64,000 bases of DNA from Sipunculus nudus (taxonomy: Eukaryota > Annelida > Sipuncula > Golfingiida > Sipunculidae): the NCBI GenBank assembly GCA_026874595.1, contig CM049319.1, positions 1,619,501 to 1,683,500 on the forward strand, given 5' to 3'. Below, one piece after another: positions 2,765-49,000 of the stretch (position 1 is the first letter of the stretch; every line of letters starts with the position of its first letter). A program made the position numbers and the translations under genes. Below the pieces are notes generated by a model, which worked only from the letters and a program-made list of their open reading frames with translations, was not told where the DNA came from and searched no databases.

Positions 2765-5700
2765 GTGAGTTCAAACACCTGTCATTTAATGGAGATTCCT
2801 GGTATGATAGTAGATTCAAAACTATCTGCATATGTAGATAAAAAAGTGATATGAGCAGCTGGTATAGTTGTAATATCAGGATGATGTAACTCTTTGGTCA
2901 CTTAAATCAGATTTTATATTTTTGTGCATTGTTTGATTATCACACAGAATAAAAAGTCACACATCTGCATGTCATGCTTCCATGTTTTTTAATTTTTTTT
3001 CTGCATGGGCTAGTACTTCTGTAATGCACAATATATTTAAATTTTTAATGCAGGATAATAAATTCCAGAAAACCTTAATATTCAAGTGAAAATGAAATTA
3101 GGCTTTCATTGCCTCAATTTATTTTTTTATCTTGAGGTTTATTTGGATTTAGGATGGAATTTTTCCCTACATTAGCACATGCAAAATCTCTCTTTTGGTT
3201 TCACATAAAAATTATTTCTTTTGGATTTTCACAAACATTTAGAATGATTGATTATGTGTACATTTGTTCAGCATACAATATGCATGAAGATATAACACTG
3301 CTTTAAGTTTGCATACTTTCAGAATGGTGAATTATCTATGCTTAGATTTGCCAATCATTTAGAATAAGGTGTAAGACATATCTGTGCTGCGGCCCTGCAT
3401 TCATCTGGCATTATGTGAATATATTGCAGGGATATCACCCCTGTCCATGCCAGACCTTGCAGGGCAGTGCCCGATGTCACAGGAACAGATGATCGGAGGG
3501 AACCTGGGTCAGAGTACTTCAGGACTTGAATCATTGACAAGTCTTCACTCTCCTTACAAGTCTGTGCCGGTGGGACAGCCTGCATTCAGCCTCGAGTCAC
3601 CAGGTCATATGAACCCATCTTTTTCCCGACACCCCTACGCTGAAGTGGAAGCCGCTGCTCGGTCACTCTCCTACAGCACAGACGTGAAAGGATCTCTCAA
3701 TGACCAGAAAGCAGATTTAGGCCTCCCGGATGATCTGTCTAAAAGCTGGGCTCTGTCAGGTGGTGGTGGTTTACTGCATAATTCCACTCTACAGTTTCCA
3801 TCCAGCAGCTCAGTGCATGAAGGGATAAAATACCCTGCCAGCAACCAGCCTCATAGCCAAGCATTACCAGTCCACTCACAGCACAACGTCATCCACAGAG
3901 ACCAGCACATGGATAAATCAGTAGGCATGTATGGAGATGCCGGGTTATACAAGCATGAATTAGCACCAAGTCTCTCCTTGGACATGAAATATGGATTCGG
4001 GGACAAGCAGCCTCAGCCGTATTCCGACCATTCCTCTGGAGTGTACCAGTCCCCGCCAATCAGCACTGGATTACCTTCACTTAACCTGTTATCACCGTCA
4101 TCCAGTAACGCCTCGTCCCATGTCAGCCTGTTTGGGCAGCAGAAAGGGCTGTCATCCAGCCAAGAACTGCTTGGATCAATGTCATCACTAAGTCAGCCAA
4201 GGTCAGAGGTTATTCGCAGTGGTTTTTTGTCTCCAGAAGTTGAAACTAAAAATAAGACACCAACTAAACCAGTGATTCCAGTACCTGTAAGTCAGGAGCT
4301 GCCCCAGAATAACTTCCCTCTTCCTCAGCCCAACAGATCTGTCCCTCCGTCTCCAAACATCAAAGAAGATACAGGTCCATTTCTGCCTCAGATGTCCCCA
4401 GCTAAGTCAGAATATTCCCCATTTACTTCACAGATTCGTACACCAAGTGGGCAGAGCTTTGACCACATTTTAGGTCAGACTGGTGTGAGGCCCCAAGAAA
4501 GCAGTATACGTAATATTTCACAGGAGTTAAACCAGATACTGGACAGAGCAGACTTTGATGCGGACAGAGCTGGTGTGTCTCTTTCAAATGATGAGCAAGA
4601 TTTTCAGACACTCTTGGCAAGCACCGACTTCGAGCAGGACCCAGAACCTGCAATAAGCAGTGACCAAGACATCAATAACTTGCCGTCAAGCATGAAATTT
4701 GAAGAAGAGTCTTTGCCTGGACCAGAACCTCGGCCAGAAACACAAGAGCTGAAAACACCACCGGAAATTGCACCTGAAAGTGAGACAAAAACGGAGACTG
4801 CCACTGATGACTCCCCGGCCAATAAACCTGGCGATTCAGTGCTGATCAATGAGAAAGAAACTGAGGACCTTGTCTCATCAGAAAATGTTGTTTCATCTGA
4901 AGCTGACGATTCACAGGACAGCACCAACAGACAGGTAAAGTGCACTCTGGTGGAGACAAAATCAATGCTGAAAATAAAGTTAGACCGAGGAGTGGTGGAG
5001 AATTTCAAAGCACAGAAACAAGAAACAACAGAAGACTTGATCAAGTCTGATCAGGATGAAGAGTATACTCCAGGACGAAGTGTTGCCAGAACCTCCAGAA
5101 GGGGGCGTGGTGGTAAAAAGAAGAGGGGCGGCAGAGTTGGACGACCACCTAAACAGCCAAAAAAAGAAGAAGCCTCCACGGCTGATTTAATTGCAGAAGC
5201 TGACCGCAGAGCACAAGAAAACCCAGGATTGCAAGCCGACATGTTTGGTTTAGAGTCAGTTGAACATGGGCTTCCAGATTTTGAACGTGATTCAAGTTGG
5301 TTCTCAGTTAGAATGTATGGAGGTGGTCCAAAGACCAAAGCTGAACAGAAACAGATGACCTTTAAGCCCAGCAAGGTCACTGTCGCAGCAGTCGATGACG
5401 ATGATGATGAGTTTGCCCATCTTAGTGCTCCACCAGATGTAACGGCATTCCCTCCAGTTGTAGAGAAAAAAGCGATTAGCGATGACGAGTTTGCTGGACT
5501 TGATGAATGTGTGGTTGAAGATACCACTCGTGTTGCTGCAAAACCAAAAGCAGAGATAAAACCAGCATTTGATGCGTCTTTCCAGAGCTCATTTTTGAGT
5601 TTTATCCAAGGAGATAAACAAGAAACTTTGGACAGTGTAACAAACAGCCATGTTGACAGAAAGCCCATCCTGCCAAAATACGTTCCTGAGCCACAAAAAC

Positions 5701-8700
5701 CAAAACAGGTCTTTAGAAGGGTTAACAAACCAAAAGAGATTAAAAATCCCATTGATTCTGAGGTAGCTAAAGAGCGTGCCAGTCCAAAATTGGTGTCTGG
5801 CACTGTTAGCCACTCAACAGCACCATCTAGTGTGGAGTTTTCTGATGATGAAGCCTCTGTGGACAGTAACTTACAAACACAAGGATTAAGTAAAACTGTG
5901 GAGAGTGTGATTTCTAGTCTTGGTAAAGATGATAGTAGTGAGGTCTCAAGCAATCCACCATCCGTGAATCCTGGTGCCAGCTTGGAGAGTAAAGAAGAAG
6001 GCATGGAAAGACCAAATGGAGTAGTGGCGCCATCTAATGGTGAAAATACCAGGGAACAAATCGTGGAGAAGGCGGAACATTTTACCCCAAGAGGGAGAGG
6101 GAAAGGAAAACGGGGAGGAACGGCCCGGCGAGGTCGTAAACCGAAAAACCATCACTTGCACTGGAAAAAATTTGAGAGTTCTACAGCATCATCAGATTCA
6201 GAGAACTTTGAGATGGAAGTGGAAGAAATCAAGGAAGAGAGGCCAGTTATAGAAGAGGTTGAGTCAGATGGGGAGGGTATTCCCACAGCAACCACAACCC
6301 CGGTGAGAAGATCTGCTCGAAAAGCATCCAACAAGATGAGGGAGCACACTGTAAACCTGCTGGAGGGTGAGTTATATAATGTTGTATAATTGTTACAGGC
6401 ACTTGATAGTTGTGTAAAATTACTTATTGTTGGTCTCATACGATAAACTGCCCTTTTACATGTAAATATAACTAAAAATGACAAAGATAATTAAATACAA
6501 CCTTCATAGTTTACCAATATGTTCATTGTCAGGAGACTGGTCTTTTCAGTAGAAGATTTGAAGAGAGAATGTTACTTGAGATGGCTCCAAGAAGCTGAGC
6601 ATCCTCAATTCAAAGTCCTATTTCTCTATTAAAAAAAAAATTTCTCTAAATAATTTATTTTTTTTTTTATATGAATAATGTAAATGAAAAAAGTATGAAA
6701 TTGTTCACTGACCAACCTCTGTTAAAAAGATTTGAAAATGGTCTTGGGAGCCATAACAGTGATTAAACCAGCAATCTGTTGACAGTATTGAGTCATGATG
6801 TGGTCTTATTCTCATCCATTAAGACTTAAGGATATATGTATGAAATAATTTAAAATCGGAGAATTATTTCTTTGCTATGCATGATTTAAGTATAATCATT
6901 GAGCAGTAGTAAACCAATGATATGAAATTCAAAATAGCAATAAATTGTAAAAGCCCTTGTGTATTGCAAAAGATCCTGAATGTTGAACCAGGTGATATAT
7001 GTAACACTGTTTCCATATTTTTTTCCATTTTATTTATATTTTAAAAAGTTCAGTAATAAAAAATATCACAAATAAAATTTCCTCAATTAAGAGGAACTGT
7101 CAGAGAAGTATTAAAAACCTATTACCAATATGTATACATTTAATTAAACCAATATGACAAAATAGGGACTGCCATAATCACATGATGTACAGACTGCAAA
7201 CATACCTTGAAGGAGTCCAATAGTAATGTGATAAACAAAGTTTTAATGATGACTAAAAACAACTTTCACTAGACAAGATCTGTAAGACCTGTGCAAGTGT
7301 GACAGTTAAAAGAGAAATTTAAATGTAAGTCGTTTAATGTAAATTAGACATGTCAAAATAGTTTAAATGTGATAATGTACAATTTTATATTAACATTTTG
7401 CTCTTGAATTTTGATACAACATCATTTGATTGAACATCATGTTATTTATTTATTTCCCAGAGTCCATTGATATAAAGAAGGCTCTGAAGGATGAAGTGGA
7501 GGTTGCCATGAGCACCGAGTCTGACGTTGAATCAATCCATGAGGCTGACTCCGATAGCGACCCGTCATGGATGCCTCAGGGACATGGACCTGTGTCTGTA
7601 TGTATCTTTTTCATGTCCAAGCCTTATATAGCTATGTGGAGTGTAAAATATCACATCTTTCAAAAGGTCTGATTAGGCTAGCTTTGATTAATCTAGCCCT
7701 GGGCCAAGAGTGTGTATGAGTTCTTAAATATCACTAGTGCTTATCTATGTATTCCCAAAAGCCTTAGTTAATCGTTACATTGTCAGCCAGGAGAATTTGT
7801 TTAAAATTATTTTTATAATTTTGGCACTTATCATTATTTCCCTAATAGTATGCAATCTCAGACTAAAATTTCAGTTACTAGATTTTTAGATCTCATGTAT
7901 TTAAATTGTTGTGCCTTCATTAATTAACAATTAAGAAATTCAGAAAAATAATTAAATTATGGGACTATCAGATTTAATGTTTGGTGTAGTAATTTTCTTT
8001 TAAATTTGATAATCATCTATATGTAATACTTCATTGTACTTTCTTCATCAGCGACGACTCCGAGCAAGCTCTGATTCAGATGAAGATCGTAGAGAAAAGA
8101 ACCGAGTGAAAAGAATGCGCGGCAGCGGTCATAGAGGGAGGTTGGTGCATATGCATGTCATTGTCCTCTGTTCGTGATTAGTCAGTAGTGTTTCATGATA
8201 AACAAACTTCCTTAGAAAATTCCTGGAATGTAATAGTTAACCATTATACACCATGGCATCATTTGCCCTTCCAGCTGTTCTGCATTTAGCAGAAAGTCTG
8301 GTAGCTGAGTTCTTTGAGGAAATGTTGGGTCTTGGATTTGAAACCTCATTAGAATGAACTTAACTTTTATTCTCATTAAACAATGTTCAAATTTTCAGTC
8401 TGCTCTTTGCGACCTTGATCAGGTTTTCTCAGTGGCAGTCCTTCCTGCCAGAACACACTTCCTGCTCTAACCTTTTTGGGTATAAAGGGACACCTTCCTC
8501 CCCTTACATACTATAACTCTGCCAATGCCTCTTCCTGTCTGTTGGATACCAAGTCACACTTTTAAACTCGATGTTGCAAAAATATATTTCACTTTAAGTC
8601 CTGTAGCTATTTTGTAGGGGCAGAGGGTCAAGTTCTATCGTTATTTTGTGTCCAATTTTTATTTTCTGCTTAAATAGAACAGGAAAGCTAGCTGAAATCA

Positions 8701-11700
8701 ACTCTTCTGTTCCAGAAACACACAATTTTATTTTTAAAAGTAGGCATTTTTAATATATAAAATAAACCATGACCCTTCCCCCCCCCCCCCCTCAGGCAAA
8801 TAGCCCCCAGTATGCATAGAGGGTTGTTGAAAAGGGTCTGAAATGTTTCTGCCTTAAACAATTAAATAAATGGCTGTATGCCAAATTTTCACTAATTTGT
8901 AGGTCAGTAAGATTATTTATTACCATGAACAAAATTTTCGTTCATGTGTGCTTTTGCAGATAATCCACAGTAGGGCCATTCTGCCTCTGGCTTTTCTGGT
9001 TTAATATTAATATTGATTTGATTGTGGTATATTTTAAGAATACTACAGATCTGTTCCAAGGTCTGATTTAGGAGCGTCACCAACAGTATCATAAACATTA
9101 ATGGGCGACCAACAGCTGACACTGCAATACAATGTGAATACTTTCACAGTGCAAAAATTGCCAGGGCAGGAATGTGTGTATTCATGGCCTAACAGTAAGG
9201 GCATGAAGCACTCCCTTTCTCATTGATCTTCCTGGGTAGGACCTCCTTTTCCAAACTCCTGAGATAATTTTTGCATTTACTGATTCTGTTTTTCCTGACA
9301 TGACCACAGAGTCAACTGTTGTCTCTAAGTACAGACATAGCTGTAGTGAGGAAGTCATTGGTGATCATGCACAATGCCATGTCAAAGGTAGAAGCATAAG
9401 CTGTGGGAGACAAAATTGTAGTACGTATATTGAACTTTTAATAAAATAAATACAAAAAAATATTTAAGGTCAGATATCTTTGTTTATGGCTAAATACCTG
9501 ACACGATGTCTTCTTGTTTGTGTGACAGCGCCAGCTGTTACCTTTTTACAGACTTCCTCAGAATGTGCCGTGTACTGCTGGCCAGCTGGTGGTGTTATGG
9601 CATGCCTGGCTTGCCCAGGTGTTATTAAATGGCCATGTATGATATCACCCAGATACAGAGTCTGGCATGCGTGTAGGCTCCGCATGCAGCAGTTGTACAC
9701 CCGAGTCGTCCTAGATCTCTTTTTGTGCAACCCCTGCTTTGTGTCAGATTTGCTCTCACTGGTCTGATAACACCGGGACATAAGCTCTGAGCCACAACTG
9801 GTGGTATCAGACCAACAAAAGTGGATGTCACATGTTTAAAATTTGGAGCTGGATGCACATTGTGATACCACACTCATTGGTCTGATTACACTTCTTTGCT
9901 CTGTGCCCACCCTGGTGTTCAGACCCAGAGAATCTTGCTATGCAAACAGTGGATACAGGATAGAGATCTGGGATCACTGCAGTATCTAACCGCGTTGTGA
10001 GGAGCGTGGCATGCCTGATACCACACATCACTCAAGGTTTATATCAATACCTGTGGACGATATGGCTTATACATTGATTTAATACAGAGGCCTCATATCA
10101 GCCCAGCATTCAGTGACTCAAGGCCTCAGAATGAAATTGATCAATGTCAAAATTAATGTGATGTCAGTGTGCATTGTGACTCATCACCCTTGAATGAAAT
10201 TGACAAGCAGCATAGGGCATGTGACATCATTATGCTGTGACACACAGGTCAGGAATGAAACTGACGGAAAGTTGTCTCAAGTGTGTGATGTTGTTGGGGC
10301 GCCTGCCTTTTGAAGAGTTTTGTTTAAAATAGGGTGAAAATAGGGTGACTATACCAGTACCCAGTGGGTTGTGCTGATAACATGCGTGGCCATTTAATAA
10401 AAATATTATGAACCGGCTTGTTAGAACCAGATTGCCTTTTTATTTGCCAATACAAAGGTAATACAGGGCCAGCTGGTTAATGAAATATCAATATTGCCTT
10501 CCTGGCAGGCGTTAAGGATCTTTCATTGTAACACTGTGATGTGACACACCTTGGGAACAAGCTGGTCAGTAATTACACCAGCAGCAGTGACGGTCAGACT
10601 GATTAGAGATGAAATATGAAGATCTATCAGTGTGTCTTCATGTGACAAGAAACAGCTATGATAATGCTAAAACAACCAACACTTGATAATTGAGAGAGCT
10701 CTAAATGTGCACATCACTTACCATCAAGAAACGTTACATTGAATAAGTTACATAAAAGCAGAGTTACATAATGCCAGTTTTGTCCCTCCATGTTACTGCT
10801 GTTGTTATTTTAAGGGTATACACTCTTTGTAAAAGCAGTAAGCACTTGTCAGATTAAAACCTTTATGGCAGCAGTAAATTTGTACCGAGAAATAAAAACT
10901 GCCACATTAGAGACAGACATGTTCCTGTGTGGAATTTTTGGCGTTTCATGTTTAATACTTTACTGGTCATAGAAGTTTGCACATTAAAGGTTACATGGAC
11001 CACATGAAAATCTCTTTATTCCATCTCCCTATTAATTTCAACTGTTAATCTGGAAAATATTATAAATTTCGTAAGTGGAATCCATCATTTTAACCCTGAT
11101 TTATAGATAGGTTTTGCCTTCATTTGAATGTTATTTCTAATGTTTTAATTCATTACTAGTGAAAAGTCAAACAGAGCGTATGATGTAGCTTTCAAAAATG
11201 AAGTGGTACAACATGCAAGGAAGTCAGGTAGCAACAGGAAAACAGCAAGACATTATGGGATTAATGAAAAGCAAGTGCGCAGATGGTTAAAACAAGTTGA
11301 ACAGTTTGATCAAATTGACAGTTCAAGAAAGCGTCTCAGTGGTGCTGGTCACCCTGTTCAGTACAAAGAGTTGGAATCAAGGCTAATGGCTTGGGTCATT
11401 GAAACGCGCAAAAAGGGGCGACCTATAAAAGGTAAAGACCTGAGAGTACAAGCGCTGCTTATGGCGTCAGGCTCATCCTTCAGGGCGTCTAACGGCTGGC
11501 TAACACGTTTTATGAAGCGCTTTGGTCTGACTGTTAGCAAGCTCAGATCCACATCGCAAGATTGGGATTCTAAAACAGTGAAAAAAAGTACTTTCCAAGA
11601 TAAAAATGGCAGTGGACTCATGCTTAAAGGGGAGGAACAGTTGCTTCCCATTTCAAATTCAAATACCCCAGTGCCAGGTAACAGTACTAGCCAAGATGAC

Positions 11701-14700
11701 CTGATTCTGAGGTCTGATGCGGGGGGACAGATGAGCATTTTAAAAAAAGAGGCAGATTCAGTTTTAAAGTCTGACACGCACACCTCAGAACTGCCTTCTC
11801 ATACTGGTCAGACTGAAAAACCAGAGGTCACAAAACTGGTTCCGGAGCAGAGTGAGGAGGAAGAAGTGATAGTGTCCATGTCAGACATAGATGATCATGA
11901 AATAATTCCTCAGGAAACTGTGTCTGCTGTATCGGCCTCAGATGATGCAAACCAAGTCACCCAATTTGCTCAAAAGGAAGACCTACTTTCTAGGTTGCAA
12001 CAAAGTTTCAAAGACAGGGTTCAGAATTCTGTCCAAGGTACAGAGGAACTGGTACCATGGTTAAAACAAAGACACTCACAGCAGGATAAAAGCTCAAACC
12101 AAAATGAAGGAGAGGTTCTGAGTTCAATCATGAATACACCAGAGCTAGTGACCAAGTCAGAGCGGCCACATGTACCAGAGTCAGTCCAAGATGATCCTGA
12201 AGTGGTCGGGAAATCAGTCCAAAATCAGGAAAGACAAACTCCCTGTAATAGGCAAGGAGACCAAGGTCCTACGTCAGACCGTGATACACAAGGTCCTCCG
12301 TCAGACCGTGATACACAAGGTCCTCCGTCAGACCGTGATACACAAGGTCCTACGTCAGACCGTGATACACAAGGTCCTACGTCAGACCGTGATACACAAG
12401 GTCCTCCGTCAGACCGTGATACACAAGGTCCTCCGTCAGACCGTGATACACAAGGTCCTCCGTCAGACCGTGATACACAAGGTCCTCCGTCAGACCGTGA
12501 TACACAAGGTCCTCCGTCAGACCGTGATACACAAGGTCCTCCGTCAGACCGTGATACACAAGGTCCTCCGTCAGACCGTGATACACAAGGTCCTCCGTCA
12601 GACCGTGATACACAAGGTCCTCCGTCAGACCGTGATACACAAGGTCCTCCGTCAGACCGTGATACACAAGGTCCTCCGTCAGACCGTGATACACAAGGTC
12701 CTCCGTCAGACCGTGATACACAAGGTCCTCCGTCAGACCGTGATACACAAGGTCCTCCGTCAGACCGTGATACACAAGGTCCTCCGTCAGACCGTGATAC
12801 ACAAGGTCCTCCGTCAGACCGTGATACACAAGGTCCTCCGTCAGACCGTGATACACAAGGTCCTCCGTCAGACCGTGATACACAAGGTCCTACGTCAGAC
12901 CGTGATACACAAGGTCCTCCGTCAGACCGTGATACACAAGGTCCTCCGTCAGACCGTGATACACAAGGTCCTCCGTCAGACCGTGATACACAATTGCAAG
13001 GTCCTACAAGTGAAAGAGAACAAGGGGAGAGTGTCTCCTCATACCATGAATCAGGAGATAAGGCAAACCAGCATCCAGTTAAAGGTGTCCCACCCATGTC
13101 TGACCAGGATCCAGCAGTCCAGAAGGACCAACATCCAGTTACCAGGTGTGATATATCAAGCAGTTTTGAAGTAATAAATGATAGGTTGAAATGATTATAC
13201 AAGCTTAAAACTAAAATGTAGTTTTCTAGAAAAAAACAATAAAACGGGGGAAGCACTGAATTTTTTCAGATATGCTGTTTTTAGGAAACTACAATTGACT
13301 TTTGATCTGGTTCTTTGTTTCTTATCTTTGCAACTTAGCAGGTCAATTTGAATGTACCTCCCAGTGATCAATTGATCTTTAATACAAATTTTTGTAAAAA
13401 ATGTTCATGTTTATATATTTGCAAATCTTAAATTCTGAATACAGAATGTCATCCTTTGGGAATAACTATTTGGAGTATCTATACCCTGATCATGTATCCT
13501 TAAGAATTTTGGCTATTTATTTGTTATAACCTCGTAATCTTTTGATTGTAAACATTTACTGTACATACTTTGTTCAAGTTATTGCAAGACTACATGGCCC
13601 CAGGCCTGATTTTGTGTTACATTGTTTTATTTGATAGAGAAAAAATGAAGAAACGTTCCTCCTTTGATGTTGCTTTCAAGTGCCAAGTCGTGGAACATGC
13701 TAGGAAGTCTGGAAGCAACAGAAAAACAGCTAAGCATTATGGGATAGATGAAAGACAAGTGCGCATGTGGTCAAAACAAACAGAACAGTTTGAAAAATCA
13801 AAAAGCTCTGCAAAACGCCTGAAAGGAGGTGGTAGACGTGTTCATGATAAAGAGCTGGAACTGTCGTTAATGGACTGGGTGATCACCAAGCGCAAAAAGG
13901 GGATACCCATATCAGGCAGAGCACTCATGCAACAAGCTAGGCATTTATCGACCGACTCGTCTTTCAAGGCATCCCCAACATGGCTGAGACGTTTTAAATC
14001 TCGTCACGGACTCGGAGGGGACAATATGAGGTTCACCTGGGATGAACAGTTTGGGGTGTCAGATGGAGATCGTGATGATAACAAAGATCTTATTAAAAAA
14101 CTGGCACTTAAAGACCAAGAATTGATTTCCAAAGCAGCACAGCAAAGGAACGAACAGATGCCTCAGGACCAACAGGAACAGAATCAGAAATCCCCGAACA
14201 ACCAGGATGTGAAGCGTGAAGTGAGTGACGAAGAAAGCACGAGACCAAGGTGTGCCACAAAACTTCTTCATTTTAACGGAAATTTATTCTTCTGATGTAA
14301 AATGTGTTTAGGTCTGATTTGTTAAGTAAACAAGAAGAAATTTGTGTATATCGCAAAGAATTTGCAAGGATTGCCCTCTTACTTTTGATAAGTGTTAATA
14401 TCTAGAATAGAAAGGAATATTGATTGTTGAAATGGTACTAATATACGTAAAATTTACAAGGACAAATGTATCTCTCTGTATTTTGATTTAAATATTGTGC
14501 TGTGAGCTTAGCAGACTACCAGTCATGCTGAGTTATAGCGATTGATTCTGTCATGTTCCTTCCAGCCAGCCAGCCATTAGCAAAGCACCAGTTATAAGCT
14601 TTAAAGGTCCAAAAAGTTCCTGTATGATGAAATATTGTTAGAATCCCCAAAGTCAATCTGTAAGTTTGTTCTACAAGTCATCAGGCAAAACAGGATATAA

Positions 14701-17700
14701 GGCGCCTTGAACATCAGATTCTCCATAACATGACTGAAAAAACATTTTGCATTAGATCATAAATTAATATCAGGCTTTTCAGTAATACATATATTCTGTG
14801 GTCATACTAAGTTTTAATAAAAGGGATCTGTTCATATACCAGGTATGTTAAATATACTTGGAGCAAAGTGTTTTTCGTTAAAATATTATTGTATCTCCTG
14901 ATATTTGTTCTAAAACTGTTTGCTTTCTCCTGTACACAAGTGGAAATAAATTGGCACTAGGCATGATCAGTGGCACAAAACATAGTGCATGCTGCCTGCT
15001 GGTCATACTGCGCAACTTCACAAATCTAGATTTTTCAAGTTTCCAAACAGTGTTTCTTCTTCCATATTTCCTCTTGTCAAGCATTCAAAAGATTGGACCT
15101 TGGGTCAGTCTTGTTACGGTAAACAGTCGCACATGAACTGTGTTTATTGGGTACTCACAGAACCATAACAAAGTGAAAAACGTGAAGTATTGATAGTGTG
15201 TACCGAAATAGTTTTGTTTGGAAACTTTTGTATTCAGGCAAAATGAACTGTTACAGTGAGAAAATACACATATTTTTGTGTTTATATGTACCTTTAATTC
15301 AAGAGAATCATTTCTTAAAAATGTCATTAACTGTCATGAAACTTTACAGATTTGGCCAGTTATAAATAGATTTACAAGACATTTTACATTTATGGTTGCA
15401 TTGATTGCCTTTGAATTTGATATGCATTCAACTCTAATCTTGGATAACTTTGTTCTGTAAGCACCTGACACCACCTGTAATTTCTACATTTTATTACCCA
15501 AGTTCAATGGTAGTTTTGAGGCTGACAACACTTCTTAGTTCCAAGAATAAGCTTTAGATAAATTTATTATTCTTAAAACAAATATGAATCCCTGAGGTTG
15601 ATAAATGTTTGGTCATTAATTTCTTTTAAAAAAGTATAAATTTTCTTTGTCCATTATAGTTGATAAATTCATGCATTTTGTTGCAGTTACACAAAGAAGC
15701 CTGCACATATCACCAGGCCTTAAAAAGTCTTATTTTTTTATTTTGCATTTTTAAAAGCTTGAAAAGGCCATAAACGAAAATCCTGACACAGGTCTTAAAA
15801 AGGTCTTAAATTTGATTTTACCATCCTGACGTAATGAACGTGCACAAACAGTTCAGTGGTTGAACATAAGCTTGAGACAGTTTAGGAGACGTTGCCGAGG
15901 TTACTTGTCGAAGAAAGATCTCTGTAAATTCTCAGGACACACTACCATGAGACCAGATCCAACTTGTAGTGATCACCATTTGGGATCTTCAGTCGTTTTA
16001 AAGCATGGAAGGGCCACTAAGGAATTTATGTATAAAAGGGTCTGAAATTTTCTGTCAGCTGGTCTTAAAAAGTATTAAAAATGTCTTAAATTGGCTTTGC
16101 CAAGAGGTGCAGGATCCCTGATCACAGTTAATTTTCAAATGTGTCTTGTTGAATCAGAGACTTTTTCAGTTTTATAAGACTAGTGGTGCCACCTACATTT
16201 ACTTAATTTCCTAATTATTTTCTAAAAATACTTGCATTTGTATCTTAATTTTTTGTTTGATCCACTTTAACTAATGGTGTACCAAATCAGAAAATGGAAA
16301 TGATTTGCTTTACCCGTACCTGTATCTATGTCTTCATTTGAAGTCGGATATACAACAAAAATACCAATTCTTCAGTTTCAATGCATAGGCTAAGGTGAGT
16401 CTCATATTCAAATAGGTAATCTCGCTCTTTCTCTAGTCGTACTCCTACAAACTATTTCAGAACGATTTAAAACAATTTATGTACAGATTTTATCTTTCCT
16501 AAAGTAAGATTCATATTTATACTTCCTTTATCTCAGATCTGAAGTTTTCATTGGTGTCACGTCATTGGGTGACTGGCTGTGCTCACCAGCTGAGTGTCAT
16601 GACCCATGGGTCATTTTGTATTTCTTCATGTGTCTGATTCATGTTGTACCATGTGTTGATAGTGAGAAATCAAAGAGAGGCTCCTATGATATAGCGTTCA
16701 AACGACAAGTAGTACAGCATGCCAAGACATCAGGCAGCAACAGGAAAACGGCAAAGATCTTTGGAATATGTGAGCGCCAAGTGCGTGTGTGGTCAAAACA
16801 AGTGGACAAATTCGATGAGATGGAAAATTCAGCCAAACGTGTTAAGGGAGCAGGACGGCGTGTTCAGAATGATGAATTAGAGGCAGCCCTGGTGGAATGG
16901 GTAATCGCTAAACGTAGACAGGGGATTCCCATCAAAGGGACGCAGCTAAAGCTTCAGGCTCATCTGATGTCAAAAGACCCATCCTTCAGAGCTTCCTCTG
17001 GATGGTTAAACAGGTTCAGAATCCGTCACGGTCTGACGGTTAGCAAGCTCAGACGCACCTGGAATGAGGAGACAGCAGCTAACATGGATGTTAAAGCAAA
17101 GGAACAGACAAACAGGTTAGCTCCGAGCTAGTCCCAGCTGTTATGATCAGCCCTAATTCTTATATAACAATAGTTTATTGTGATTGGGTGATAGGTACAA
17201 GCCAGTTAGTTCACTTGTATTGACGATGAGTATACTATACCTCTACACACAGCACTGATCAGCAGCAGACATACTTTGTTGATTTTAAAGTTTGCTCATA
17301 ATACTTTAACATATCATGTTAATAGAATAGCTTTTGGTGAGGATACTGAGGCATGCATCAGATCTGACTTGCTATGACCTGATAAAAACAAGAATTGACA
17401 ATTAATGTTATCTCTAAGGTCTCGCCTGCTAAAGTTCGTTCCACTACTCTGTCCACCTGTTTTTTGGTAAGTCCAGGATGTCAAAACTTTTTACATGAAA
17501 GGCAGAAAGAGTAAAACGTATAATTAAATATTATGAAAATATTAACATACCTCATGTCATTTTCTGTAAAGTTTTATAACAATCTTGTGTGAAACTAGTT
17601 CATTCTGTATTGCTATCAGACCACAAACTATATGAAATGGACTTTGTAGAGATATTGCGCATAAAAGACATAACTACAAGACCAATTTATAAAGATATTA

Positions 17701-19898
17701 GACCCTATTTACAGAGAGGTTTGTCCTCTCATGCACACACTTCATTGTTACATCACATATTACATCATAACCATATCTCTGAAGAACATACAATGATTAC
17801 CTATTAAGAATGCCATGAATCACAGACATGCAACAGACAACTCAATTAGGCCGTAAAGTGAATAATAATTATATCAAAAGCAGGTATGATACAAAAAATC
17901 ACACATTTTCCTCTTTTTCTGCCATTGGTGCAATATTTTTTGTTGGCAAGGTTGACTAATCTTTAAGTATTTAAGAAAAAACAGGTGAACAGGGGTGGTG
18001 GAACTGAATTTAACAGGTGCCATGTAGTAAGTAGGTTTTCCTTCTATATGTCCATCCATCCTTCACACATTTTTCTTGCACTATCTTAGCATATTTCTTG
18101 CACAGTCTCAAGAACTATTTGAAACATTGCCATAAAAGCTTATTGGAGATAGGTACCCATAAGTTTCATGACTGGAGTCCAACATGTCCACTATGCAGTT
18201 ATATTCAGACTTAATTTAAACTCATGAATTATCTCAAGAACCATTTGAGCTTGGCTCTGAATTTTTTTCTCTGAAGATTAATGTGTTAGAGAAAAATGTG
18301 TGCTTTCATTCAGCCAGTGTGGTATGCATGGGGTATGTTGGGGCCCTGATTTAGGACCATATCCTATATGAACATTTAACATTCTGAAAATTTTAAGCTC
18401 TCCATTGTGTTTCTGAGAAAATAAAAAATACAAAAATGTCTTATCAACCCTTTAATATATAACATTATTTTATCTTTTTAAACAAAGACTTAGACCATTA
18501 TAGCCTTAGGTCTGAATGCTTTGTCTGCTTCTGGTGAAAAGTTTGATGTAGACGTGTTCTGTTTTCCTCACTGTATTGAAATGATGGGCTTGTAACTGAC
18601 CCAGAACTAACTTATCTGTGGATTTTATGACATGTTAATTTGATAATGATATTTGTTTGAATAAAAACATGAAGAAATCATCAGGATATTGTTATCAGTG
18701 GGATTTTTTAACCTTGGATTTTTTATAGACCCATGAAATGACTCGTGAAACAATAGGAATTTTGCTAAGCTCCATGGTTTAGGTACAGAATTTTAAAAAC
18801 AATAAATTTTGGTCTTGAACTCACCAGGACACAAGTGGTGAAATGGGAGTGGTATTCCTTAAAATACATATCACATTATGTTGATGGATTCAGCTTATCT
18901 TGCTTTATATCTTGATATTTATTTCTGTGTTGGGTCTAGAAATATGCATGCGATTGCACTTACAATCAGTATCCAGATTGAAAAACCACAACATCTGTGT
19001 GGTTATAACCCCCCTTCCCCCCTCTCAAATAAATACTATGACATAATAATACTGGTTTTGGTACTGGTCTTGCTGAAACAAACCTACTCCTAAAAAAACA
19101 AGGATTTATTCAGTTAGACAGCTCACACACTGGTAACATAGGAATTTTGCCCATGATAAACTAGGTGGCAAACATTCTTTATGGCAAACATGCTTTTTTC
19201 AGCACGTTTTACACTTCTAATTGTTAGATGTTTTAGATGTTAAGCCCCACAGCTGAAGACACCTTGTCTGATCCCAGCACAAAATTGAAAATTTGGATGG
19301 TGGAAGTGCACTTTGATATTTGAATTGCAGATCATATCTTTTGGATTGTTGCTAGCCTTGTGTGTTCTTTATTGTATTGTTTGACATTCATTCATACATT
19401 GTGGTTGTTAAAATAATCAAATACAGAGTCACTGATAATTTTTTACAAGTATAATCTGTATATATGTTATTATATATTAAACGGACACTAATTTTATAAT
19501 CCTGTAAAGTAATTGTATTTGACCATCTTTGTCAATCTGTATCTTCTCTATCTGTATTGCATGTTTGTGTGAAGTCCCCAAAACACCCAAAATCGCTCTA
19601 ATTTGGTACCTGTTACAAAACACCCACTGACCCTCAAATTAGGAGCCAGCACCTAGTATAATTTGATAAATAAACAAATGTTGAATATATTTATGCAGTA
19701 TTCTCATCTTATTTCATATACAGAAAAAACATTGAGTGTCATAGAGGTTTAGTTTTTAAGAAACCTTGTTGATTAATTGTATTTATATAGTTATGTCATA
19801 ATACTACATCTATATTTAACAGGCATTTATTTATAAATTGATGCTAGCTTTTGGTTTCACATTTGGGATTGTTTTTACCTGTCTTTCTCCTGCACACA

Positions 19899-19943
<45 letters not shown>

Positions 19944-22900
19944 CTTTGTTTTATATATTGTAAAACCTTGTTCTGTCAAACTGGTTGAATTTTCAGTAAC
20001 CCTTTTGCATTCAGTTTACTTGTCCCTGAAAATTCAGTTAAATTTGTTTTCAAGTAAATCCAGTGATTTCATTCAGACCTAAAGAACAGTGGAACCCGTC
20101 TCAAAGACCACCTGCCTGATGAGACCACCTGTCTACTAAGACCACCTGTCTAATAAGACCACCTATCTACTAAGACCACCTGTCTAATAAGACCACCTGT
20201 CTACTAAGACCACCTGTCTAATAAGACCACCCTTCAGTGACCCTGACACGTTCATGTTGATTATAACTGACCTAACAAGACCTCCTGTTAATAAGGACCA
20301 CTTTTGTTTTTTTTTTTTTACACAGCTTTCACTGTATATTTCACCATTTCTGAGAGTCCCTTTGGTTAAGGCTGAACAAGGTATTACATTATATAAATTT
20401 AAAATTGTATGACATCTTTACCTACAACTACTTCTGTATTTTTCAGGGGACGTGGACGAGGTAGGGGACACACAGTTACCCATGCAGTACAGCCCAGTCC
20501 CATACAAACAGAACAGACAGAGGTCAGTTCAGAGAAAAATGTTGAGAATTTATTGAGACTTGGGGAATCACTACTCCTAAGTAAATTAGCATCTTTATCA
20601 TAACGTCTTTATATTTGCTACCAAGTATTATAAAAAATGTGACACCTTCTTCTGGAAATTTGGTTGATTTCAAATTAATACACTTTTGTTAAAACAATTA
20701 CTGAAACCTACTGGTATTTATGGAAATGGCATCTTACTAATAGCACTGTCTGAATGGCCTCTTGATTTTGGTTTGTTGCTTTATCCCCAAGAATTGAAAT
20801 TCTGAGTGGAAAGGAAGCTGCACATTGATTTGTTTAATTAAAAAAGGAAGACAAGTCTGTATATTTGCAAATATAAACTATAATGTGAATATACACAATT
20901 ATGCCACAACAATTGATAAAACTATAAAAGATGACTGAAGCATTGATTTGGATGAAATAGGGAAATGTTCTCAAGGTAATGTACAGAACTTTTGATTATA
21001 TAATTGTAGGCTTTACCTGAGTTTGCTTCTGTTCTTTTGTCAGATAATATGTGAGTGATATGACCTCGAGGTCATTCTCAGTGTAGCATACCCTACAGGG
21101 ACTTCTTTGACGGTCCTCCTATACAAAACATCTTATCAGCTACATAAGAATAATGGAAGTGTGTTCACATCAGAAATCAGCCCTGTGTGACCTAGTTTTC
21201 ATTGCAGAGGTGCAGTGGGATTAAGATCAGTTTAACTTATACCTTGATAGATACTTTGTTAATAGACCACTAGATGGTGCTACATATCAATATAGGGCAA
21301 GTTTACTGTGAATATGTGAGCTGTTTCTGTGAAATCAATACTAGATGGTGTTGATTTCTATTCAGAGTGCGTTTTATGCTGGTCAGCACTCTGTTCTGAA
21401 GTTATTCTTTTAGAAGGGCAGAAAATGTATTATATTACTTTATTGTTTCTATACAGGAGGTGAAGAGGAAGGCGATAGTGGGCACCCCTATCCCTGTAGC
21501 CATCGTCAATAAGCCAGGCACCCCAGGACCAAGCTCCACTCATACCACGGATAATGAAGAAGTGTCAGAGATTCTGGATGGCGATGAATCCAATCCTGTA
21601 CACAATTATCAGGTAAATCAGTGATGCCTTTTGTACATCAGCCATCTACACATCTACTAAGTAATATTACAATACTAGTATCCTCAGAAATTTCTTAACT
21701 GAAGATATTACCGTAAGAATCTCAATAGAATACGCCTATTATACTAGGATAATGTCATTAACAAATTGGAGAATTTTGTATGAACTCCACCTGCTTTTTA
21801 TATTTGAGGCATCACTGTGAATCTGATCAGGAGCAGCATGAAAAATGACTAAAGAGTGAGTGATAATAGAAGCATTTAATGGAAACTCTGAAATTTTCTC
21901 TATTTTCTTAAAATCATCATTCTAGTTTCTATATAAAAGGCTGATATTTATGTATAAACTACTTTTAGTTTAAAAGTGTTTCCAGTGGAAGAGTTGTAAA
22001 ATATATGATTAACTTATCATCACTAGCCAATCACATACAGCTTGGCATGTCACATGATTTCAGCAAGCACATCAGTGTTAGTACAGGCACAAGGTGGTGC
22101 AACTCCAGCAGCTACATTCACTACCCTCGGCAGCAAATATTTTTCAATAGCATTTACTTAGTACAGCACATTGTGAAAGAGTACCTCTATTTAAATATTC
22201 ATTTCCAGGCCTCGAATTTGACGACCGACAACCGGCAAATGCTGGTTAAAATGGCTGGTTGCCCTCAGCCATGATCCTGACTGCCAGCAAGCTGTCGGTC
22301 AAATAAATTCCTCACTACGTCCTTCTTGACTGTACACAATCTTAATCGCAGCCACTCCATATGCTTTTTAATTGAAAAAAAAACTTAGTGTTACTGGTTC
22401 CCCGTTTAAGAGGAAACTGGCCTGGGAAACCAGCAAATGAGCCGATAGTCTCTTACAGTGACACACGGTGGCGCTAAGCTAGCCACCATTCGGATCTACT
22501 CAGGGAAAATTCAGGGAACATTTCAGATAAAAAATGGCTACCCGTCTGCAAATCAGAAAAATGATCTTTTATGACCGGCTGTTATCAGCCAATCATAGCT
22601 AAGCATAGAGGTTAAAGCAGCTTGGGCTACACGTCTACATTATGTTACGCGTTATCCGATTGGTTCGCTGTATAAGGATATTGGTAATACAGTTTCGCGG
22701 GAAACTTCATCGTATCCATGCTGTGTTCAGTTGTAAAATCCTGCATATCTGGTGTTTAACATATATAGTATATATATAAATACTGGGAACACCATTAATA
22801 TATCTATTATAAGGTCTATCATCGTCCAAATTAGGCCAGCTATTAAATTATGACCTGGTAAAAAAATTATTCCCATTTCCCAGCCCCCGTCCTTGTCTCC

Positions 22901-25900
22901 ATTACACCCACCATTGTCACAATGAATAAAACATACTTGGATATGTTTTTTTCTTTTTCTTATTTAGACTTTATTCCAAATAAAATAATGCAAACAAATG
23001 AAAAAAATTAAAACTGCCTGTCAAATTTCTTTGTTGCCTGTCAAGATCAAATTTAACAGGCACCAGTAGCTTGTTATTTCCAAAAATGAAATTCGAGGCC
23101 TGATTTGGCCCCACTGTATGTCTTCTATATGAAAGAATACCTCCAATTACATATTCATTTGGGTCCTACTGGATGTCTTCTATGTGAAAGAGTGCCTCCA
23201 ATTAAATATTCATATGGGCACAACTGGGTATCTTCTAGCTTGGCACATATACACTTCAAATATTTCCAGTGGGGGTCATGAAAAGTAATACAGGTAAAAT
23301 ACGGCAAGATACATACATACAAGTATGCATTTTTTTCATGGCTTAAAAATTACTGCCAGGCAGGCATTGACACTTTCCATTCATTAGCTGGGCGACAGGA
23401 AAAGTAGAGGGTTTGAGCTAAATTTGGGAGCGTATTCTGTTAGGGACTTTAATGGAAGAACTGTGTGTGCATCATGACTAAACATTCTGAGCAAAAACCA
23501 GGGTGCTTTTTCCAGTGAGGCAGCGTAATCTGTTGAGAACTTTACAGTAGTTGCACCAAAGTGAAATTAAGGGATCTATGAATGTGACAAGCAGGAGAAA
23601 AACAATTGTGGTTTAACATATTGATAATGTTGGCAAATGTTCGATCTGCAAGAAATAAAGGTTTGGATATATGCGAGTATATTTTGTCTCATGACCTGGA
23701 TTTAATGGTAATGACCGAGACTTGGTTTAAATCGTATGATGAAGCAAAGCGAAATAAATGTGAACCGGATGGCTATACCTTGCATGATTTTCCAAGGAGA
23801 GACCATGTAAATGGAGGTGGGACTGGTATTATCACGAGAAATAATGTTCAAGTCAAATTACTAAAAGCAGAAGATGGGGAAATCATATGAATATTCTGAG
23901 TGGTCGCTGACGTATGACAAGCATGTCATTCACTTGGTTGTTCTCTATCGGCCTTGTTACTCGAAGAAGCATACAGTCACAGTGGGTGAATTTCTGGGTG
24001 ATTTTTCAGAACACTTACAAGATTTACTGATAATTAGTGATCGGCTCTTAATTTTGGGAGATTTTAACATACATATAAACAATCCTTTTGATATTGATGG
24101 GCAACACCTCCTAGATATGTTAGATAGCATGAGTTTGTCGCAACATATAAATTTTCCTACGCATATACATGGTCATTCTTTGGACTTATTAGTCACGCGA
24201 AATTTCGACACCTCTGCTGCGAGTAATGTTCAATCGGACTATTTGATTAGTGATCATTTAACTATTTTGTTCAATTTAGAGATGCCAAAACCACTAAAAG
24301 AGATGAAAACCATCAACTTTAGACCTTTAAAAAATTTAGACATCGCAAATCTTGGTGAAGAGTTATCCAGTGGGTTTGAAGAGGCGATTTCTTGGATATA
24401 CATGATGCAAATTTATTGGCTATTTTGTACAATGATATTATAGTGAATGTTTTGGATAAAGTTGCGCCTGCAAAAACAAAAGTTATTAGGACGCAACATT
24501 CTAGATGTACATGAATTCTCAGAGTGTCCATCCAGCAAAGCGATGCTACCAGAGTTTCAGCTAAGTACACATGAGGAAGTTCGAACATTAATTGCACAGT
24601 TGCCAGATAAACAGTGTTTCTCCGATCCAATACCTACTTCCATTGTAAAAAAGTGCTCAGATGTTTTTACAGGGATTATATCACATCTGATAAACACTTT
24701 GTTAAGCTCTGGTGTGTTCCCCGAGGTATGGAAGCAACCTATTGTGACGCCTTTGCCTAAAAAGCAAGGCATTTGTGAACTCTCAAATTTTCGACCAGTT
24801 AGCGGACTGCAGTTGTGCAGTAAACTAACAGAGAAAGTGTCAGTGTTAAGACTAAATGACCACATGTCACATTACTGTCCATTACCTGACCACCAGTCAG
24901 CATACCGTACCGCACACAGCACCGAAACGGCGCTTGTTAAAATTTGTTCTGATATATTCGACAGCATGGATCGGCAGGAGCTGGTTCTCCTCGTGCTGCT
25001 CGATCTTTCGGCAGCATTCGATACTATTGATGCTCGATTATTGGAAACTTTGCAAAAGGACTTGGGCCTTTGTGGCACAGTAATAAATTGGTTTAAATCA
25101 TATGTTTGATCGGACCCAAAGAATTAAAGTAAATGGAACTCTGTCTTATATATTTGAACTTAAGTATGGGGTTTCCCAGGGATCCTGCTGTGGGCCTGTA
25201 TTGTTTTCTGTGTACTGTCGGCAGTTAATGGGAAATAGTCAAAGGCCATCTTCCTCAGGTACATGGATATGCTGATGATCATCAGCTGTACCTGAGTTTC
25301 CGTCCTGGAAAAGAAGAAATCGCTGTACTGGCTATGGAAAACTGTGTCAGAGATGTACGTCACTGGATGCTACAGAATAAACTGAAAATTAACGACGGAA
25401 AAACTGATGTTTTAGTGTTAGGCACCAGACAGCAATTGGCTAAAGTTAATTTAGATTCTATTAGGATTGGAGAGGATATAGTCAAATGTTCAGTGATGGC
25501 ACGAAATTTAGGTTTTTGGCTGGATTTAAATATGGGTATGAACGGACAGATTAATGCCACATGTAGCAATGCTTTTCATAGTCTTTATAATATCAAGCAG
25601 ATCAGGAAGTATATAACAGATGATTCGGCGAAGACATTGATACATGCGGTTGTGACTAGTCAGTTGGATTATTGAAATGCTTTGTACATTAATTTACCTA
25701 AATGTAAATTAAAGAAATTGCAACGAGTCCAAAACACTGCAGCTCGGTTGATTTGTAAAGTATCTAAATTTGATCACATTTCACCGGTGCTTAAGATGCT
25801 GCACTGGTTACCAGTCAAATACAGATGTGAATACAAAATATTAATTCTTACATTCAAAGCTTTGCATGGTTTAGCCCCGATTTACATCAGTGAGATGCTT

Positions 25901-28900
25901 ATACTGTGTGATCATGCTTGATACTATTTACGTTCAAACAATGCCATCACTTTGAGAGTACCACGAACAAAAACGAAAACAGTTGGTTGTAGTTCACTTC
26001 GATACGCAGCTCCTATATTGTGGAACAACCTACCAGTGCATCTGAGACTCGTGGATAATTATGAACGTTTTAAGTCCGATCTGAAGACATTCTATTTTAA
26101 AACTGTTTCTGAATTTAGATATATATAAATGCTATGCTATGTTTTACTGGTCATATATCATGTGCATATGTTTTAATATCATAGTCTGTTGTATAACTAG
26201 TGCAGTAGAGATCTGTTTATGATGATTAGCGCTATATAAAAAATAAACTATCTATCTAACTATCTAATGTATTTTTATATGAAGTCTTGTTTTTTGTGAT
26301 TTTTTTCCCTGGTTTTTTATGATTTGTATAACAATGGATGATTTTCTTCTCACTGTATGTAAAATGAGCCTCTTTATCCCCATGTTGGTGTTCTGATGTG
26401 ATGTCCCTAAATGATTTCACATAAAAGAGTTGGATGATATGCCTTTAGATGATATATATAGCAGTAATTCATTTGATATAGATGATATTCAATATATATT
26501 TTGGTATTATAATATTAGTTTAAACTGTTTACATGTTATTGTATCCCCAGACAAAGTCGGGGGATACTATGTTTTCATGAAGGTCCGGCCGCCGCAGCTG
26601 CATATTAAATTTGTTGGCGCGATAACTCAAAAAATATTTCACGGATCTTTACCAATCTTGGTATATGTAAAGATATGGGTGAGAGGACGACGCCTAATTA
26701 AAATGAGGTCATGACCTTTTCTAGGAGAGTGTCCTTGACCTTGAATAGATCTAATTTTGGAGAACATCACACAAATTCTTAAATATCTCAAGAAATCTTG
26801 CATGGATTGATCCCAAAATCAAGTTTATCGAAGATCATGGATAGGGTTGTCATGTTCCAGAAACTGTTGGCGCCACCTATTATTATTAACTTGTTTTCGT
26901 GCCTTTTAATACCCCCAAAATTTGCCACTTGACAGTACTGTGAGCATTATAAGTAAAAAATTAATGGACGGATTTCTTTTATATTATGCATTTACATAGA
27001 TATGGGTTATGGGATGATGTTAATTTAAATTGGGGTCATGACCTTTCCTATGAGAGTGGCCTTGACCTTGAATATTCCTATATTTGGTAAAATTCACACA
27101 AAATCTTTAATGTCTAAGTAACGGATACATGGAATGATCCAAAAATCAAATTGACCAAAGATCTTGGATAGCCTTGTCTTTTGCAGAAGACAGGTGGCGC
27201 CACCTCATGTCGTTTTCTTGTTAAAATGATGTTAACGCAATAACTTTGTAAGAATTTGAGGTACAGTCACTTAACCCACAGGTTTGATGCATCTTATCAA
27301 TGACTAGGTCAAGTTCGAACATGGTTGACTTTGATGCATTTTTTCAAGGTCACAGCAGCGATTATGCTAAGATGTTATTAGGACAATAACTCAAAAAGAA
27401 TTTGTGGTACAGTCACCAAACCTACAGTTAAGATGCATCTTATCAAGGGCTAGGCCACGTTCGAATATGGATGACCTTGATGCAATTTTTCAAGGTCACT
27501 GATGCGAAAACGCTGACAAACCCACAAGTTTGATGCATCTTATCACCGGTAGGTCAAATTTGAACATGGATGGCCTTGATACATTTTTTCAAGGTCACAG
27601 CAGCGATAATGTTAAAATGAAATTACAACAATAACTAAAAAAAAAAAATGTTTGTACAGTCACCAAACTTACAGGTTAGATGCATCTTATCAAGGGCTGG
27701 GGGAAGCGGGGGGGGGGGGGGGGGGGTTTAATTGTCTGAGGATACTATGGCACCTGTGGGTCCAAGAAATATCTAGTTTTTAAATGAAATTTGTATGCAG
27801 TCCTTAGTATGCAAACTGTTTTGTGGCACTTTATATCAATGTGGGAAAAGGAAACTACATTATAATACTAAATTCTATTATTATCAATCCTCTGTATTTC
27901 AGGTGTTTGTGTGCATAGTGTAGCATTCACACAGAGTTAACAGAGGGAATTTTGCTGTGAAGATATTTGGTCTTTGTCAGGGATGGAGCTAAGAAGCCTT
28001 CAGCCCCACAATCCTATGCCTTAACCAATAACTTGTATGATTAATTTTTTATTTCTCTTTATTTGCAGAAGGGAGACTTCCTGATAGAGAAAGCAGAGAT
28101 AGAAAAACGATCAGATGATGAACCATTCCCCATTTGGCGCATTGACTCTGCCAACCTGATCCAGAAGTTTGACCCATTTATTAAAGAGGGGAAGACTCTG
28201 CACAAAGCATCGGCCATGGTACGTCCTGATAGGATTGTGAATTGATATATGAAAAAAAGATATTATAATGTAGTATTTTGTAGTTTGTTGGTATTTATAA
28301 AGCTTCTTTAATGAGTTGCTGGACCGACTTAACAAAGTTTTGTTAGATCTAGCACTGCTATCAGATCATTACAGTTGTAATCCTAGCTAATATTCTGTTC
28401 TCCTTTAGTTGTAAAGTGTTAAAAAAATTTGCTCAATCAGACCGGAACGGAATTGTTTTTTGTATGATATAAGTTAAAGTGGCAGGATGCACAGAGAACA
28501 ACTGACAGCTGTGCCACCAGTGAGTGTCACCTGTACCATTGTTAAGGCAGGGCCTGTAGGGAGAGCCCACGGGAGCTGGAGCTAGACGTAGCCATGATCA
28601 CATAAGTAATCATCTGACCATGACGCTGTCAACAGTAGGCTAATTAAAGCTAAGGAAGTAATCACATTCACACCAGTATTCCTCACTTTGGTCAAGTTTC
28701 TTTGTAAGTGATTAGTGTTTCATGGGTCATTTCCCCATGAAAAAATATACCATGGCCCTAAGGGTGCCTAGATGCTACCACATATAGCGCCATCTACCAA
28801 CTAACAATGGTATTAAATGATGTCAATAAGAGATGTGGTCATGCATATTCTAGTTGGCATATCATTAGTTCTCTGGGGTTGCAAGCAATATAAGAGGTAT

Positions 28901-47638: not shown

Positions 47639-47649
47639 CTGTAATTCTC

Positions 47650-49000
47650 CTGCAAGAAAAATCAGTCTGTTAACATTAATTATATTGTTAGCTTCATTCT
47701 TTATAGTGTTAGCATCAGTATTATAGCTGGAGTATCAATTGTCGGAGGATTACATTACATTTGCATTCATTTTAGCATCAGAATCAGTCATTATAGTAAT
47801 AAGTATTCTAATCAGATTGCTGACCTACTTTCATTAACTTCAAGAATAAAGTGTATGACACCTTTGGGGAAACTCTTCTGTTCATATATTCAACTGCTTG
47901 ACTAAATGTCCTTTAGTATTCCAACTTCTTCATAATTATATTTAAATAGCCCACTTTCAATTATGCACAGCTATCTTTTGAGTTCTTTTGAGTTTTAGTG
48001 AATTCACGTCTGATTATATCACCATAGAAAAAGTGCAAGTTTTAGTGAGAAATCAAGACTCAATCACTTTTACATTTCAGCAAATTAATACATCAAACAA
48101 CATTTAAGTTATCACTCTTTATTGTTCTATGGTTATTGATTAGATCTGTACCTGCAATTAAAAAAGGTCCTTTCACTTTCAAACTGCAACATCCAGTAAG
48201 CATTATATAATTAACACACTCTGGTCACATATATAAAATTTATATATACATAAACATTTATTTTACATTTTTCAATGCTGTGCATACAATTGTAATGTCA
48301 TTTACACAAGTGATGCAAGCTCTATTCAGCTATTACGTTATAGCTATGATTTGCTCAAGTACAGCATGTGCTATCCAATTTTGCAACTGTAAATCTAAGA
48401 AAAAATACATCACTGCCAGATAAGTATCAGTGTACTGAGAAAGGAAGTCTGAGCAGCAAAATTAGTTTCTTGGTAAATAAGGAGCAGGAACAAAGTGGAA
48501 GTTTAATATGACCTTTTTTTAAGAGTACAATTGTAATGGAGTGGATTGATTCAGACCGAACTGATATAAAAAATAATAATTTCCATAAAGTATTAGCTCC
48601 CTGTTTGTCTTTTACCATGACAATCATGGATTCACTGTAGACGTAGTGTAGGAATGTCAACACATACCTGAAAATTGAGTAAAATTTGAGTAAATTAGAG
48701 TTATTGAACCAAGAAACACGTAATTGGAGAATCTCCACATTATATGCGGAGCAACTTCGGTTGTTGCAAGAATCTCAAACAAAGACTGTACTATTTCATT
48801 ATTCTGACTATATGACCCTATAATTTGTAGCTAATCTAATAATTAATACATATATTAGCACTGTAGATGATAACTCGTTTTACAGAAATCTTTAATGAAA
48901 TGTTAATATGAATGTTATTGTTAGATTTACCTGTATTTAGTACGATTTTCCAAGAAAATGTAAGTATAGCACTCTACGTGTCTCCTGTTACAGTACCTAC
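47650..49000 (-). other. Proposed 5' intron of the F-box/LRR gene
   Basis: Bounded on the minus strand by gtaggt at 49000 and ttgcag at 47650. A second minus-strand donor-like site (cag|gtatgtg at 48668) might mark an optional exon. No coding potential. Confidence 0.45.

Follow-up and report, generated by a model that had tools for sequence, protein, structure and literature searches.

Why should one intron of a chromatin gene contain three transposase-like DNA-binding modules that share the strand and the splicing phase of the gene around them? The question is raised by a 64,000-nucleotide stretch of the Sipunculus nudus genome (GCA_026874595.1, contig CM049319.1, positions 1,619,501 to 1,683,500 of the forward strand; hereafter the window, whose own numbering is used throughout), in which a gene resembling QSER1 and PRR12 has an intron at 8141–20446 that holds the modules, M1, M2 and M3. 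We propose that they descend from a captured DNA-binding exon that was tandemly duplicated and kept as a set of cassette exons in a host-transposase fusion, a reading that we consider probable. The QSER1/PRR12-like gene would have acquired, in the form of a symmetric phase-2 exon, the BrkDBD plus CENP-B/Tc5-type domain of a pogo transposase of the Passer type, with an acceptor splitting a codon at, or about one residue from, the transposase start Met, and with the catalytic DDE part left behind. The captured exon would then have been duplicated in tandem inside the same intron, the copies gaining different tails. Spliced between the basic RG/AT-hook region of the host and its DUF4211 region, the modules would yield host proteins that carry anything from zero to several DNA-binding heads of transposase type, and each head could provide the host body with a two-part, sequence-specific DNA contact.

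Three modules in phase with the host gene

M1 spans 11160–13145 (1986 nt), M2 13638–14249 (612 nt) and M3 16663–17115 (453 nt), with spacings of 492 and 2413 nt between them. All lie within the intron on the host (+) strand, with AG before and GT after, have lengths that are multiples of three, and are in phase 2 at both ends; in all of these respects the description in the first-pass annotation was correct. The host exon directly upstream (8052–8140, + strand) is open in the host frame and ends in KRMRGSGHRG in phase 2, and the one directly downstream (20447–20522, + strand; 3′ end chosen by eye) begins with RGRGRGRGHTVTHAV and fits the frame. It had been claimed that modules can be inserted without breaking the frame, and this holds in silico: each of the three, joined to 8052–8140 and to the 20447 exon, gives no stops in the host frame, and the host-only join of 8140 to 20447 is equally free of stops and reads GSGHRGRGRGRGRGH. 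Joins into the modules read Ser-Glu-Lys (M1 and M3) or Arg-Glu-Lys (M2), and every join to 20447 makes Arg, because all of the modules and the upstream host exon end in AG.

The first Met within the exon is at residue index 75 in M1 and 52 in M3 (counted from 0); neither therefore has an in-exon Met ahead of the domain, and translation of the complete domain would have to begin further upstream. In M2 a Met is the third residue and precedes the domain. These positions bear on the explanation that the modules are one or more separate nested genes that are transcribed from a promoter of their own, start with small first exons and do not join host exons at all. Such genes are compatible with the strand and the intron position, and the M2 Met would suit them, but M1 and M3 lack a corresponding start, and the only Met available in the M3 open reading frame (ORF) ahead of the domain lies upstream, where the sequence lacks coding-like composition. 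Moreover, the phase agrees with that of the host at six ends, and outside the modules the intron contains no ORF on the + strand that reaches 100 aa, although this leaves room for a short first exon. We regard nested genes as very unlikely.

Domain content, predicted fold and tails

BrkDBD and HTH_Tnp_Tc5 both score above the curated Pfam cut-offs in every module, bearing out by profile search the pair that the first-pass annotation had read from the letters. It had also suggested a POGK/Tigger-type origin; the POGK part of this stands, whereas Tigger does not, as the pair is described, in the part of the source drawn on here, as a mark of the Passer family of pogo transposases, from which POGK arose (PMC7386202). 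No DDE catalytic domain is among the Pfam matches of the modules, and a tblastn search of the intron with three transposase queries gave nothing better than E 1.7 beyond the DNA-binding parts. The modules are therefore derived from a Passer-type pogo transposase rather than being members of that family.

When a profile built from the three modules was compared with solved chains, the best matches were human CENP-B (1hlv, E 9.8e-8) and Drosophila Brinker (2glo, E 0.0083), and the third was at chance level. A structure predicted for M3 from the three-row alignment (mean pLDDT 72, pTM 0.38) contains the helices of two helix-turn-helix units. Foldseek placed the CENP-B–DNA complex 1hlv first for this model (E 1.4e-3, probability 1.00), with a TM of 0.40–0.45 and an rmsd of 8.7; given the low TM and this rmsd, we take the two units to be differently placed. 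None of the 123 Foldseek matches fell below E 0.001, and Brinker was found at E 1.2 with a probability of 0.87.

The first recognition helices are nearly alike, differing at few positions (ERQVRVW, ERQVRMW and EKQVRRW), and the second differ more (SSGWLNRFRIRH, SPTWLRRFKSRH and SNGWLTRFMKRF). From this pattern distinct targets are possible but not strongly indicated. It is also conceivable that the heads no longer bind DNA and act instead as protein-binding surfaces, a role suggested for the HTH domain that F-box A2 proteins carry in Caenorhabditis (PMC12062965); retention of the fold is, after all, no proof of DNA contact. However, the nearest solved relatives are the DNA-bound CENP-B and Brinker domains, and we think a purely protein-binding role unlikely.

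The tails that follow the domains are wholly different, so the heads may differ in their partners more than in their targets. M3 has a short tail and M2 a charged one ending in DVKREVSDEESTRP. The long tail of M1 contains a 27-nt tandem array at 12262–12993 (732 nt; 27.1 copies, 99% matches) whose in-frame translation is (DRDTQGPPS)n; the array is open in several frames, its unit length being divisible by three. It is probably young and variable in length between individuals. We searched the genome assembly (1.43 Gb in 153 contigs; here and below, match counts are lower bounds) with a 231-aa piece of the M1 tail, and the single match listed was the piece itself. Sequences resembling SUMO motifs occur in the module tails at 11740–11900 and 14200–14249 (EEEEVIVSMSDID, LKKE and VKRE).

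Exon boundaries and coding signal

We scored splice sites with donor and acceptor consensus sequences, and expressed the scores as percentiles among the GTs or AGs of the 8141–20446 intron. The module donors are at the 99.1–99.7th percentile, and in each of the three ORFs the in-phase donor ranks first past the domain, among 7, 2 and 1 candidates above zero. A codon log-odds score, with two coding stretches in the window as its training set, is below zero on the outer side of both the acceptor and the donor in every module, with a weaker contrast for M3. M1 and M2 show a switch in composition at both ends, and their tails score clearly in frame.

These boundaries can be set against the explanation that the modules are alternative last exons, in which each ORF runs on to a nearby stop and yields a truncated host protein tipped with a DNA-binding domain. 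M1 would suit this arrangement, as its stop ends at 13194 with an AATAAA 44 nt further on and another at 13173. For M2 and M3, however, the nearest AATAAA or ATTAAA past the stop is 521 and 392 nt away. The coding-like signal of M1 and M2 ends at the donor rather than at the stop, although only 15 and 14 codons separate the two, and in each module it is the in-phase donor that scores best. Truncation of this kind seems to us quite improbable.

Several of the scores fit less comfortably with modules that are spliced as delimited here. The module acceptors are weak, at −1.6, 1.2 and −1.6 (73rd, 92nd and 73rd percentile of AGs; that of host exon 20447 scores 5.7, at the 99.6th percentile), and for M3 a higher-scoring acceptor, also in phase, is present at 16537, with a score of 5.3. 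Within the domains of M1 and M2 the frame is barely favoured by codon log-odds (0.09 versus 0.11 and 0.01 for M1; 0.10 versus 0.09 and 0.09 for M2), and in the 17-codon tail of M3 another frame scores equally (0.46 versus 0.51). A longer M3 beginning at the 16537 acceptor was considered and is held unlikely, the added stretch not being coding-like.

If spliced, the modules need not be optional: all three could be constitutive, in which case every copy of the host protein would bear three consecutive heads and no choice would be made. The phase permits joint inclusion, the donors are good, and the spacings do not force exclusion. The weak acceptors tell against constitutive use, as does the seamless host-only join, and we judge it somewhat unlikely. 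Because the acceptors are weak and the host join is complete without the modules, optional cassette exons appear the most likely arrangement.

Divergence and constraint between modules

The modules are 58, 60 and 58% identical in amino acid sequence in the three pairwise comparisons, over 137–139 codons; by halves of the domain, pairs are 61–65% identical in the first and 50–61% in the second. NG86 estimates give a dN of 0.33, 0.29 and 0.32, and a dS of 1.64 and 2.93, with the third undefined through saturation. Differences are much more frequent at third codon positions than at the first two taken together (Fisher p 3e-5, 5e-11 and 2e-11). With a dN of about 0.3 against a saturated dS, and free of stops, the modules look old and constrained, as expected under purifying selection.

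We also simulated neutral decay (3000 runs per case), with the array removed from M1. At 0.6 substitutions per site the reading frame survived without a stop in 0 of 3000 runs for M1, 0.03% for M2 and 0.27% for M3; at 0.2 substitutions per site the corresponding values were 0, 0.8% and 3%. Recent transposon debris was rejected as an explanation, since the modules lack stops and dS is saturated. Outside the modules, flanks of 100 and 300 nt included no pair whose similarity exceeded that of the best among 30 control pairs from the intron; the closest, M1 and M2 at 100 nt, reached 0.58, against a control maximum of 0.58.

Origin of the modules

Searching the genome with M3 returned at least 107 matches, the top three being the modules themselves (100, 57 and 60% identity). 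Next listed is a low-copy pogo-type element, represented by loci L001 and L002, at about 53% over the first half, and members of a commoner element group are 38–41% identical to M3 over the full domain. A query with the first half of L001 gave at least 50 matches, including C8:71186895 at 76%, C3:83072093 at 63%, and the modules at 52–56%. L009, a member of the commoner group, has BrkDBD, Tc5 and DDE_1 in a single 465-aa frame. The nearest elements have an intron, between ELDK and ALI in L001 and between ELEK and ELI in L002, which is absent from M1–M3. The second exon of both L001 and L002 extends past Tc5, and that of L001 aligns with DDE-bearing elements such as L009, although Pfam reports Tc5 alone on these second exons. 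Scans of viral and prokaryote contigs for relatives of the modules gave 62 and 94 pattern matches respectively with none confirmed, and are uninformative about animals.

The acceptor pattern TAG|N GAR AAR is common to all three modules. Compared by eye and without gaps, the codon that the acceptor splits coincides with the start Met of the elements in M3; in M1 and M2 it is offset from that Met by a single residue, in one direction or the other. This shared acceptor edge is the chief reason to favour a single capture and subsequent tandem duplication, which is probably how the three modules arose.

The alternative is that the modules represent three independent captures, or unspliced remains of transposons in the intron, and part of the genomic evidence leans in that direction. 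In a tree of 23 rows, built from sequences of this genome and omitting the partial or broken L005, L006, L018 and L022 (L020 has no domain match), the modules are grouped on one side of a branch but with weak support (78/36). Pieces of decayed elements (L004, L005 and L006) are 54–60% identical to M3 over 43–46 residues, and are thus almost as similar in the first half as the modules are to one another. Freedom from stops is also shared with elements: among six neighbouring copies, L003, L004 and L005 have a domain interrupted by a stop or a broken frame and L006 is a partial match, but the domains of L001 and L002 are stop-free too. If the captures were separate, part of the constraint between modules could stem from their life as transposases. 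On the other side, the acceptor pattern is common to all three modules, which also lack the element intron and the DDE part, and stops would be expected in most cases of neutral decay. Independent captures or remains are, in our view, improbable, and we retain a single capture with tandem duplication.

Two further loci emerged from these searches. L010:3–4082 (G000:C6:25791500–25797500) is a 1432-aa open frame with two pogo-type units (Tc5 HTH and DDE_1, two stretches each) and several AT-hook-like GRPRK motifs between the two; it resembles a double transposase that arose by fusion and has possibly been domesticated. At G000:C4:52274356–52290777, four stop-free matches to the module domain lie on one strand within about 16 kb and may be a domesticated family.

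The host gene and neighbouring features

The host looks like an animal chromatin gene related to QSER1 and PRR12, and the first-pass annotation had called it QSER1-like. DUF4211 (PF13926) agrees with this, scoring 29.9 bits against a Pfam cut-off of 27 when five exon pieces at 28–33 kb are concatenated; these belong to the downstream host exons at 28069–32883 (+ strand), whose boundaries were set by eye. A search of the unspliced genome for DUF4211 gave no match, and 14 controls were equally silent. Upstream, a large host exon at 3375–6366 (+ strand) has AT-hook-like basic motifs read by eye; 3375 marks where the open frame begins rather than a mapped 5′ exon end, and the 3′ end is a GT picked by eye. 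The open frame runs from 3375 to 6389 (1004 aa) and contains no Pfam domain at E≤0.1. With the translation of 3465–5900 (812 aa of this exon) as query, the one genome match listed is the exon itself.

A later host intron contains, at 23640–26130, a broken LINE-type retroelement with frames that by eye resemble endonuclease and reverse transcriptase. Downstream of the host gene on the opposite strand, 45821–47734 (−) is a 637-aa open frame that by eye is F-box/leucine-rich-repeat-like. Tandem arrays are present at 35603–37204 (58-nt unit, 27.6 copies) and 62343–63498 (332-nt unit, 3.4 copies).

Comparison with known systems

The closest parallel in domain content is POGK, described in the portion of the source used here as Passer-derived and as combining KRAB with BrkDBD/HTH_Tnp_Tc5 and DDE_1 (PMC7386202). 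As with the modules, the same DNA-binding pair is attached to a host regulatory domain, but POGK retains DDE, whereas the modules comprise the DNA-binding domain only, in three cassette copies and in a QSER1/PRR12-like gene. Fusions of host genes with transposases through splicing are a known kind of event, with 106 fusions from 94 events in tetrapods (Cosby et al. 2021, as cited in the part of PMC8616336 consulted). In KRABINER and the other tetrapod fusions a transposase DNA-binding domain is likewise joined to a host gene, there by splicing (PMC8616336, same part). Here, in contrast, there are three putatively spliced tandem copies of a captured exon in one intron, and the host gene matches once in its genome. 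Capture is otherwise known one fusion at a time; in this gene the captured exon itself has apparently been duplicated into a cassette set.

DUF4211 is common to PRR12 and QSER1, both have AT-hooks, and mammalian QSER1 counteracts DNA hypermethylation, according to the passages of PMC11050278 drawn on here. The Sipunculus gene has the same host architecture, DUF4211 with AT-hook-like motifs, and those passages mention no transposase-derived DNA-binding domain in QSER1 or PRR12 (PMC11050278). The suggestion that no described QSER1/PRR12 protein carries such modules thus stood: neither a QSER1/PRR12–transposase fusion nor a triplicated cassette, and hence no combination of triple cassettes with a QSER1/PRR12-like host, was found in the literature searched, which covered few subscription journals.

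We put forward more tentatively, as a possibility we rather doubt, that the modules are three exchangeable heads from one duplicated captured exon, and that splicing re-aims the chromatin protein, possibly at remains of the donor transposon family. If this were confirmed, it would show how a host can broaden the range of DNA sites at which a single chromatin protein is aimed, with no need for a gene duplication. Drosophila lola, Broad-Complex and mod(mdg4) each join a shared protein body to alternative DNA-binding exons that encode zinc fingers. The arrangement described here would be similar if alternative splicing occurs as proposed, with internal, transposase-derived cassettes in place of the zinc-finger exons of those genes.

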